Source: Candidatus Peregrinibacteria bacterium GW2011_GWA2_33_10 (GTDB lineage: Bacteria; Patescibacteriota; Gracilibacteria; UBA1369; GWC2-33-13). From it: a stretch of DNA of 51,203 nt. Every line of letters starts with the position of its first letter. The first letter of the stretch is position 1. Of the stretch, positions 48,915 to 51,203 are shown in pieces. The translations under genes and the position numbers were made by a program. Where the stretch lies: the NCBI GenBank assembly GCA_000989565.1, contig LBOO01000015.1:1-51203 (forward strand), written 5' to 3'. The notes beneath the pieces were generated by a model. It was not told the DNA's origin. It ran no database searches and saw nothing but the letters and a program-made list of their open reading frames with translations.

Positions 48915-49673
48915 ATGGAACAATATTCAAACGACACACTAGATTATGCTGAGAAATCGCCTGTAGAGGCTAGAAGGAGATTGTTAGAATTACACGAACA
49001 AGGTTATCAACTTTGCGCAAATTTTCGAGAGTTATTTAAATATTGGGAGAAAGACGGTTACAGATTAAGATTTGAAAATATGGAAAAATTCAAAAATATT
49101 TCAGGTAAACTTTTGAATATTTCCTCAGAGATGAAATTTTTACATGCTGCTTCAGATAGCGGACAAAGTGATATTATAATAAATAATGCTACTTTTCAAA
49201 ATTTTGATGATGTTATTTCTAAATGCAATGATGTTCTCGGCTCTCCTATCTACAGAAATTCATGTACAAGCAATGTGTTGCGAAATTTACCTCATTCTGA
49301 ATCACATAGGAAAGTAATTGATCTTGTAGGAGGAGAATTGAATAATAATCAAAAAACTTTGTGTGAAGATTTGAGTAGTTCTGAAAATAAAGATTTTCCA
49401 AATATTTTTGTTTATGCTCATGAATTACAGAAAGAGCTTGATGTGAAATCAATACTTGATCAATCCATATTCTTATCAGATGAGCAAATGGCTTTAATAA
49501 CAGAAAAGAAAAAATTAATCCAAAGTTTAATTGAGGAGAGTAATGATAAAAAAAGTCAATTATTCCGGCAACAAAAAGAGGAAAAACCACAGGCAGGGAA
49601 AGTTGTGCCTCTTTATAAACGAGCTATAAAAAGAATTACAGGTATATTTTCTACAGAAAATGAAGCGGCATAA
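48915..49673 (+). CDS. Orphan helical protein
   Basis: A 252-residue protein I do not recognise, mostly charged and helical (probable coiled coil near 190-225), without a signal peptide or membrane helix. The C-terminus is basic (VVPLYKRAIKRITG). Cysteines are scattered. It stands alone before the tRNA-Gly region. Confidence 0.65.
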   Translation: MEQYSNDTLDYAEKSPVEARRRLLELHEQGYQLCANFRELFKYWEKDGYRLRFENMEKFKNISGKLLNISSEMKFLHAASDSGQSDIIINNATFQNFDDVISKCNDVLGSPIYRNSCTSNVLRNLPHSESHRKVIDLVGGELNNNQKTLCEDLSSSENKDFPNIFVYAHELQKELDVKSILDQSIFLSDEQMALITEKKKLIQSLIEESNDKKSQLFRQQKEEKPQAGKVVPLYKRAIKRITGIFSTENEAA

Positions 49674-49728
49674 AAATATTTGCGTTGAAAGATTTTTTTT
49701 GATACATTTGGACAGGTTTTTTTTAAAT

Positions 49729-49792
49729 GCGGGTATCGTATAGTGGCTATTATGCGACCTTGTCCCGCAATGCGGGATCGAGAGACGGGTTC
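49729..49792 (+). pseudogene. Broken tRNA-Gly copy
   Basis: The first 34 bases equal the 5' part of the intact tRNA-Gly at 50057, up to the anticodon loop. A palindrome TCCCGCAATGCGGGA (49763-49777) replaces the anticodon end and the first bases of the 3' anticodon stem. CGAGAGACGGGTTC (49779-49792) again matches the tRNA, and then homology stops inside the T-loop. The 3' half and CCA are missing, so it cannot be functional. Confidence 0.85.
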
Positions 49793-49807
49793 AATAAGAT
49801 AAATAAT

Positions 49808-50071
49808 ATGGAGGTCTTTACAGTTTATATCTTGAGGAGCATAAAGACAAAAAAACATTATATAGGATATACAATTGACATTAATAAAAGATTACTTCAA
49901 CATAATACGCGACTAAATAGATCAACTATTAGAGGAATACCTTGGGAAGTGATTTATAGTGAAACTGGTTTTAACTCCAGACAGAGGGCAATGAGAAGAG
50001 AAAAAGAAATAAAAAATTGGAAAGGTGGAATTAAATTCAAACAATTTTTAAAAAATGCGGGTATCGTATAG
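49808..50071 (+). CDS. Small GIY-YIG endonuclease
   Basis: An 87-residue single-domain nuclease. Tyr7 and Tyr18 lie in VYILRS and HYIGYT, Arg28 in INKRLLQH and Glu65 in RREKEIKNW; these are the catalytic positions of the GIY-YIG fold. The frame is open upstream through the broken tRNA copy (to 49727), but the ATG at 49808 gives the normal N-terminus. The last codons (AGIV and stop) lie inside the intact tRNA-Gly. The arrangement looks like a homing-type element in a tRNA gene. Confidence 0.88.
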   Translation: MEVFTVYILRSIKTKKHYIGYTIDINKRLLQHNTRLNRSTIRGIPWEVIYSETGFNSRQRAMRREKEIKNWKGGIKFKQFLKNAGIV

Positions 50072-50131
50072 TGGCTATTATGCGACCTTGCCAAGGTCGA
50101 GAGACGGGTTCGATTCCCGTTACCCGCTCCA
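50057..50131 (+). tRNA. tRNA-Gly (GCC)
   Basis: Acceptor GCGGGTA/TACCCGC, anticodon stem CGACC/GGTCG around TTGCCAA (anticodon GCC), T-arm ACGGG/CCCGT and an encoded CCA at 50129-50131. The first 15 bases overlap the end of the GIY-YIG gene. The 5' 34 bases, with four upstream bases, are a 38-bp direct repeat of 49725-49762. Confidence 0.96.
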
Positions 50132-50408
50132 GAGGTTTTACTTAATAAAAATTTGGCTTGGATTGGCGTGTTATAAAGACGTAAAAAGGCTGCCAGTTTT
50201 GTATTGATGTAATAATTTGTATTTTTATGCTTTTTTAGCTTTAACAATATTCGCGCTTATTTATATTCCGGCGATACTTTCTTTGGTTTTTTAGGGGTGT
50301 AGAAGCATGACGATTTTTGATTCTCTGCACGATGGAATAGCTATTTTTATTGACTAATTCAATATTTAAAGTATTATTTTTTTCTATTCTATATATTATT
50401 ATTTTATT
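50132..50408. other. Intergenic region without recognised features
   Basis: AT-rich spacer between tRNA-Gly and the amidohydrolase gene. No ORF beyond a few codons and no clear hairpin was seen. Confidence 0.4.
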
Positions 50409-51107
50409 ATGGAAAAAAATTTACCTTATGAGCTTATTTCGAATGAATCTTCTTTGATTTTAGAGGTACCTCATTCCGGAACCGGTACTGAATTTATACC
50501 GGAGATCGTTAAAAAAAACTTTAAATTTGGTGATCCGGAGGCGGAAAAAACTTTAAAAATGGGTGTTGATGCCGCGGTACCTTATCTTACAGACTATAAA
50601 AAACAAATTGATACAGAAAAATATTCCGGTGTTATCAATAAATCTTATCGAGTATTTGCCGATCCTAATCGTGATTTAAATGAATTAGGGGGAGATGCTA
50701 TTAATGAAGATGTTATTAGAGAACCAAACGGTCATGGTTTAATTTGGACAAAAAGCGCAGGGAGAGTTGATGATTTAAAGGCCGCTAATCAAGCGGTTAT
50801 AAGCGAATTATTAAAACAACCTTATACTCGGGAAGAAATTGATGAAATTTTAAATACTATGTATTTTCCATATATTGAAGCTGTTAGAAAGGCGATTAAA
50901 AATTCTTTGAAGAAAACCGGTTTGGCTATTGTGTGTTCATTGCATAGTATCCCGCCTTTTCAACCTGCAAGACTTAAAACCGGTATTAATAAAGGAACTT
51001 ATGTTTTTGGACCAAAAGCGCGGAGAGGAAAAGTCGAAAATTTAGAAGACATCATGGCAGGAAAGGTCCCGGATTTATTTATGATTACTAATGGAGGTTT
51101 GTCTTGT
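50409..51107 (+). pseudogene. N-formylglutamate amidohydrolase family gene, interrupted by an IS
   Basis: The frame encodes LILEVPHSGTGTEFIPEIV near the N-terminus, YRVFADPNRDLNELGGDA, CSLHSIPPF and a C-terminal MITNGGLSC, all as in the N-formylglutamate amidohydrolase family (zinc hydrolases removing N-formyl groups). After NGGLSC the reading runs into unrelated codons and stops at 51137, within the end of an insertion sequence. The rest of the gene, probably the last 10-30 residues, lies beyond the element or is lost. Confidence 0.8.
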
Positions 51108-51203
51108 CATCCCTGTAAAAGTCAACTAATTCGTTGACAAATTTTCAAGAATTTTTTTTGGGGTCAGTCCATTCAAAGCTTGGTGAGGTCTTTCATAATT
51201 ATA
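51105..51203 (-). mobile_element. End of an insertion sequence (IS3/IS481-like), running off the window
   Basis: The homology of the amidohydrolase gene stops at about 51105, and from there the minus strand encodes the end of a DDE transposase. TGTCATCCC at 51105 may be the outer tip of the terminal inverted repeat. GTCAAC/GTTGAC (51121-51138) forms a hairpin around the transposase stop. The other end is outside the window, so the family and size are uncertain. Confidence 0.7.
51126..51203 (-). CDS. IS transposase, C-terminal end (partial)
   Basis: On the minus strand the frame reads YNYERPHQALNGLTP and ends KKILENLSTN at a TAG (51126-51128). YN-x-x-RPHxALNGLTP is the typical C-terminus of the rve integrase core in IS3/IS481-type transposases. 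The N-terminal remainder lies beyond position 51203. Confidence 0.85.
   Translation of the reverse strand, partial: YNYERPHQALNGLTPKKILENLSTN

Follow-up and report, generated by a model that had tools for sequence, protein, structure and literature searches.

Why should the gene of a very small nuclease lie between a broken and an intact copy of one and the same transfer RNA (tRNA) gene? The question is raised by contig LBOO01000015.1 of Candidatus Peregrinibacteria bacterium GW2011_GWA2_33_10, from which a stretch of 51,203 nucleotides, hereafter the window, was analysed. On its plus strand, a broken tRNA-Gly copy is followed by a GIY-YIG nuclease gene and then by an intact tRNA-Gly(GCC), with the coordinates collected in Table 1. 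The locus probably belongs to a widespread family of minimal selfish, homing-like cassettes that invade tRNA genes and carry a rescue tRNA with them. This nuclease-tRNA family is apparently previously undescribed; no description of GIY-YIG cassettes in tRNA genes was found in the open-access literature.

The initial annotation of the window had pointed to a 38-bp direct repeat over the 5' half of the tRNA, a nuclease gene ending inside the intact tRNA-Gly, an upstream copy cut in its T-loop and a 15-bp palindrome in the anticodon loop of that copy, and all four features were confirmed. The repeat is exact and coincides with the tRNA, and therefore cannot be chance. The stop codon of the nuclease gene (TAG, 50069-50071) is nucleotides 13-15 of the intact tRNA-Gly, and the encoded protein ends in KNAGIV. 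Within the broken copy, the stretch corresponding to nucleotides 41-58 has one mismatch to the intact tRNA, and ARAGORN called no tRNA there. The cassette measures about 330 bp, and no 3' tRNA piece was seen downstream of the intact tRNA-Gly, which is the sole tRNA-Gly(GCC) found in this 87%-complete assembly (the next best match being a tRNA-Gly(TCC)).

The architecture is not peculiar to the window. A profile of seven nucleases detected members in 261 of 380 genomes of the phylum (E <= 1e-8), and the relatives counted below are the 135 best loci from several hundred Patescibacteria genomes. The initial annotation had hinged on the existence of other nuclease-tRNA pairs, and these were found: the nuclease ends at a same-strand tRNA in 73 of the 135 relatives and lies at most 25 nt from the tRNA start in 59 (background open reading frames (ORFs), 4/145), with the stop codon inside the tRNA in 31 of the 73. 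Additionally, 27 of the 135 have an intact same-strand tRNA at most 300 nt upstream, just 5' of the nuclease start, and none has an opposite-strand tRNA as sole neighbour. The six best relatives from 59 genomes of the same order all lie directly 5' of a same-strand tRNA (Ile, Gln, Gln, Pro, Trp and Leu), each with a hairpin-broken partial copy of the adjoining tRNA upstream. Overall, the host tRNA genes comprise at least 17 isotypes across Patescibacteria (the Candidate Phyla Radiation, CPR) and a few other phyla. An assembly chimera was rejected, as dozens of genomes, single-contig ones included, have the same architecture.

More familiar elements do not account for the window locus. A self-splicing group I or II intron, or an intein, with an endonuclease was rejected, as an Rfam search of 49400-50400 matched just the tRNA and no intron was found in the window. 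Integrase-type tRNA elements encode an integrase, and the part of the tRNA that they duplicate is usually the 3' end; here the GIY-YIG gene is the sole ORF between the tRNA copies and the repeat covers the 5' part of the tRNA. A phage origin was likewise rejected, with no integrase between the tRNA copies and no phage relative found.

The broken copy recurs together with the nuclease. In 56% of loci, the sequence upstream of the nuclease can be matched to the tRNA on its downstream side with a score >= 14, as compared with 1% of mismatched pairings; in 18 of 72 loci, the intact tRNA has a 3' tRNA piece after it (control, 2%). A perfect, GC-rich hairpin with arms of at least 6, located at most 100 nt upstream of the nuclease, precedes the gene in 39 of 73 loci versus 1/72, 0/72, 0/73 and 1/70 in control stretches. 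In many loci this hairpin is inserted cleanly between adjacent tRNA nucleotides, mostly around the D-arm but also in the anticodon and T-loops. A rule placing the hairpin in the loop of one arm and the end of the copy in the loop of the next holds for the window and several other loci, and was rejected as a general law. The closest named relative, L224 from a Candidatus Gracilibacteria genome (64% identity), also lies at a tRNA-Gly(GCC), and its broken tRNA-Gly copy, of the same kind as that of the window, contains TCCCGTATTGCGGGA.

These upstream pieces could also be viewed as a regulatory leader instead of insertion debris, with the nuclease acting on RNA or regulating tRNA expression, for example by cleaving the tRNA or its precursor. 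The placement of the broken copy between promoter and nuclease start is consistent with this view, as is the stop codon within the tRNA at the 31 loci noted above, since RNase P processing would then remove it. However, the length and sequence of the broken pieces differ greatly between loci, and such pieces may be absent; 3' pieces are found downstream of the intact tRNA as well, and mirror-image loci have no 5' leader. A role of this kind is very unlikely.

Table 1. Positions of the cassette components and flanking leader in the window.
Feature	Positions	Strand	Basis
Presumed native tRNA promoter/leader, now 5' of the broken copy	49690..49728	+	In relatives with a filled locus, the broken copy holds the promoter-proximal tRNA place
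38-bp direct repeat, copy 1 (AAAT + tRNA-Gly nt 1-34)	49725..49762	+	Exact match to copy 2
Broken tRNA-Gly copy (nt 1-34, palindrome, nt 41-58; ends in T-loop)	49729..49795 (end ~49795)	+	blastn match to tRNA over nt 1-58
GC-rich palindrome TCCCGCAATGCGGGA in place of anticodon-loop nt 35-40	49763..49777	.	15 bp; 7-bp arms around 1 nt
Single-domain GIY-YIG nuclease gene, 87 aa, ATG at 49808	49808..50071	+	PF01541, E 7e-14; AlphaFold pLDDT 93.6
38-bp direct repeat, copy 2	50053..50090	+	Exact match to copy 1
Intact tRNA-Gly(GCC)	50057..50131	+	ARAGORN; Rfam 57.8 bits

No consensus sigma-70 promoter was recognised in the presumed leader. Farther downstream, in the region 50409-51203, an N-formylglutamate amidohydrolase-like ORF stops at 51137, beside a minus-strand piece reading YNYERPHQALNGLTPKKILENLSTN*. 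This piece at the contig end resembles the C-terminus of an insertion sequence (IS)-type transposase, and an IS may therefore have truncated the amidohydrolase-like ORF.

The palindrome type of the window was found at five further sites in its 1.26-Mb genome, with none for a reversed control pattern. A second palindrome, CCTGCCTGCCGGCAGGCAGG (L198-L215), is scattered in 26 of 145 genomes of the phylum in up to 23 copies (reversed control, 0), often within ORFs as LPAGRQA/PACRQAG peptides. The proposal that CCTGCCTGCCGGCAGGCAGG is a cassette-only feature was rejected based on this dispersal, which is mostly away from nucleases.

At several loci, the working copy is a complete tRNA that differs from the resident one and lies between the pieces of the split resident gene. 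The outer 5' and 3' acceptor strands of L069 and L150 pair 7/7 with each other and 4-5/7 with the enclosed tRNA, and those of L122 pair 7/7 with each other, with a crossed pairing of 6-7/7 that includes wobble pairs (a compensated difference). Within genus g68, genome G084 has, at a locus where the nuclease is absent, a 5' piece of the resident tRNA-Tyr, a hairpin, a complete tRNA-Tyr, a hairpin and the 3' piece of the resident, and the enclosed tRNA-Tyr differs from the resident in the acceptor stem. Since the outer pieces pair mutually around a different tRNA, the resident tRNA was split with a complete replacement inside at L069, L150, L122 and the G084 site. The pattern of an inserted endonuclease with a foreign replacement of the displaced gene is represented by these sites; in the window, the two copies are identical over nucleotides 1-34. 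As a separate observation, L173 (G294) and L177 (G260) each have an intact tRNA-Leu inside a split tRNA-Leu without a nuclease, bounded by an inverted repeat of the CCCTGTACA..TGTACAGGG type.

The same syntenic tRNA-Thr/tRNA-Tyr locus of g68 was found in empty, filled and derived (nuclease-less) states. G189 represents the empty state with adjacent intact tRNA-Thr and tRNA-Tyr, G062 the filled state with a broken Tyr, the nuclease, a second broken Tyr and an intact Tyr, and G084 the derived one. Additionally, the filled genome G335 has the same tRNA-Leu(CAA) sequence as two empty congeners, and full recoding of the rescue tRNA is therefore not supported as a general rule. The search for empty sites suggested by the initial annotation thus succeeded for related cassettes at tRNA-Tyr and tRNA-Leu, and empty alleles of this kind are a mark of GIY-YIG homing endonuclease elements.

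The nuclease tree was built from 127 rows on 81 columns, and many of its forks are therefore unresolved. Even so, the tree tracks the tRNA isotype, with 37 changes compared to 48.8 +- 1.6 when shuffled (minimum 44 of 300), and carries no host-family signal (59 changes versus 60.2). Nearest neighbours share the isotype in 27 of 67 cases (5.9 expected), and 25 of these 27 are in different families. The nuclease lineage is tied to its target and transferred between hosts, as in a GIY-YIG homing endonuclease element.

These results bear on an explanation without any mobility, in which a local tandem tRNA duplication arose around a resident housekeeping nuclease gene and the first copy decayed by insertion of a palindromic repeat. 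The identity of the window copies over 34 nt agrees with such a duplication, and dispersed palindromes do enter other genes. This explanation is nevertheless strongly disfavoured and very improbable, given the 17 isotypes in many families, a nuclease phylogeny that ignores the host, foreign tRNAs nested in split residents, hairpins concentrated in the broken copy and empty sites in congeners. Overall, the initial proposal of a small homing element entering a tRNA gene, with a functional copy restored on one side, is supported by the 73 pairs among 135 relatives and by the empty sites of related cassettes, and is refined by the nested replacements described above and by the existence of a mirror-image arrangement. 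The latter was observed in Zixibacteria and Bacteroidetes, where related cassettes have broken 3' pieces, and in Verrucomicrobia a related nuclease is placed after an intact tRNA-Asn.

The nuclease itself retains all catalytic GIY-YIG positions (Y7, Y18, G20, R28, H32 and E65, invariant in 24 relatives), so the GIY-YIG domain with intact catalytic residues characteristic of a homing endonuclease element is present. The AlphaFold model is confident (Table 1) and consists essentially of one domain, with no recognisable DNA-binding domain beyond the catalytic one. An I-TevI-type modular homing endonuclease was accordingly rejected, the protein having 87 residues and no separate C-terminal DNA-binding domain, and I-TevI gave a weak match. 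The nearest solved relative by sequence is UPF0213 (1zg2, E 2e-16) and the best in the fold search is SLX1, placing the nuclease with UPF0213/SLX1-like proteins by both sequence and fold.

This kinship suggests another route, structure-directed invasion, in which an SLX1-like nuclease would cut hairpin, cruciform or branched DNA and the cassettes would gather in the loops of strongly self-complementary genes (tRNA, transfer-messenger RNA (tmRNA), RNase P RNA, ribosomal RNA (rRNA) and long inverted repeats), the GC hairpins being part or by-product of the reaction. The nearest folds agree with this idea, as do relatives beside tmRNA (L130, L065, L142 and L167), at RNase P RNA (L137, and L086 by eye) and between long inverted repeats (L081, L140, L148 and L157). 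PMC11270868 likewise reports low sequence conservation at the sites of those CPR rRNA insertions that have GIY-YIG ORFs, and a placement of most rRNA insertions in CPR at the top or base of stem-loops. On the other hand, pure structure targeting does not predict a nuclease tree that tracks isotype, unless the spread is homology-driven. Structure-directed invasion is unlikely, but the bare UPF0213/SLX1-like domain and the relatives at tmRNA, RNase P RNA and long inverted repeats keep it alive.

Several other settings of the relatives were observed. A second cassette type starts right after the CCA end of an intact tRNA (L048, L050, L053, L061, L073, L166, L066, L155 and L131) or after tmRNA (L130, L065 and L142). 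Its leader before the nuclease spans 60-230 nt and is strongly structured (CGAAGTAC..CTTCATGGCA..GTGCCCTGTAGT-hairpin-..GGGGC); an Rfam search of leaders from the tRNA loci of this type at permissive thresholds gave no convincing family match. With no tRNA nearby, the nuclease ORF is enclosed or directly preceded by long inverted repeats in L081, L140, L148, L157, L164, L103, L136 and L108, with arms such as CCCCGTAGAGAATTTTAGAA...TTCTAAAATCTTCTACAGGG. In L137, an RF00010 match of 651 bp around the nuclease exceeds the model length, and in L086 the nuclease seems, on visual inspection, to lie in an RNase P RNA hairpin loop. In L111 and L135, the cassette lies directly 5' of an apparent tRNA-Asn start into which a group I intron (RF00028) is inserted.

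For the homing-like cassette, the following course is proposed. The nuclease would cut a tRNA gene that lacks the cassette, within or close to a loop, and homologous-recombination repair from a cassette-bearing copy would install the cassette. The resident tRNA would thereby end up broken and have a GC-rich hairpin in one of its loops, which is the arrangement observed, and the complete same-isotype tRNA beside the nuclease, intact in sequence, would keep the cell alive. At some loci, the rescue tRNA would be a complete replacement of foreign origin lying between the pieces of the split resident gene, again an arrangement that is seen. Judging from the positions of the parts, a single transcript from the original promoter may span the broken copy, the nuclease and the rescue tRNA.

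Several points weigh against this course of events. DNA cleavage by the nuclease is a step that we infer, and the intact tRNA beside the nuclease should itself be a target, with no protection evident. The nearest solved structures are UPF0213 and SLX1, not I-TevI, and one catalytic domain without a separate DNA-binding domain leaves long-site specificity unexplained. By ARAGORN, 35 of the 135 relatives have no nearby tRNA, some of which sit at tmRNA, RNase P RNA or an intron-containing tRNA. The empty alleles come from related cassettes, and no empty version of the tRNA-Gly site of the window was found in a genome set without genus mates. Finally, the broken and intact copies of the window tRNA are identical over nucleotides 1-34 and so give no sign of a foreign origin.

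A bolder version may be put forward only tentatively, and is itself rather doubtful: the locus might be the smallest natural 'cleave-and-rescue' element, in which an 87-residue nuclease destroys an essential single-copy tRNA gene and carries the replacement that renders the element indispensable, the dispersed GC palindromes being ends or footprints of the system. A broken resident gene with an intact copy is seen, and the tRNA-Leu at the filled site does not differ from the one in empty congeners. The same hairpin stands on both outer pieces of L069 and L114, that is, on both sides of the nuclease-plus-tRNA insert, and is cited for the palindromes as ends or footprints.

If the proposed course is correct, a widespread selfish element resides in essential tRNA genes of ultra-small bacteria, in which most tRNAs have a single gene copy, and resident tRNAs are replaced by horizontally acquired ones. 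The element would account for fragments of tRNAs, for part of the tRNA turnover and perhaps for the GC palindromes of CPR genomes, would be a natural counterpart to engineered home-and-rescue drives, and would raise the testable question of how a bare GIY-YIG domain picks a tRNA gene.

Among known systems, Rickettsia palindromic elements and bacterial repetitive extragenic palindromic (REP) sequences are dispersed palindromic elements inserted in genes. The palindromes described here are similarly short, GC-rich and genome-wide, ORFs included, but also mark the broken tRNA copies of nuclease cassettes. UPF0213 (YhbQ-type) and SLX1 nucleases are the closest sequences and folds with solved structures; to our knowledge, they are housekeeping or repair proteins that are not embedded in tRNA genes. 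The cassettes share the GIY-YIG catalytic domain, selfish spread and empty and filled alleles with I-TevI and the phage T4 Seg/Mob proteins (free-standing or intron GIY-YIG homing endonucleases), whereas the cassette nuclease lacks a linker, a DNA-binding domain and an intron. Integrase-type tRNA elements (prophages, integrative and conjugative elements and PYG1; PMC9897764) also place partial and complete tRNA copies around inserted DNA, but are reported at roughly 9-23 kb, in contrast to a sole gene for an 87-residue nuclease and a duplicated tRNA 5' part.

The nearest precedents are mobile endonuclease ORFs of fungal mitochondria (PMC3630166) and sparse GIY-YIG ORFs in CPR rRNA insertions (PMC11270868). 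The latter share CPR hosts and structured RNA genes with the cassettes, and tRNA goes unmentioned in the searched text of that paper. The fungal ORFs, known from Allomyces atp6 and from Glomus atp6/atp9/cox2/nad3 hybrids (LAGLIDADG, with GIY-YIG in atp9), are alike in that an endonuclease in an essential gene brings a foreign replacement and leaves the native part as debris (PMC3630166). Unlike the cassettes, they target protein genes and replace the C-terminal part (the gene 3' end) alone (PMC3630166). The cassettes instead target tRNA genes, occur in either orientation, can bring along a tRNA that is complete and have hairpins marking the broken copy.
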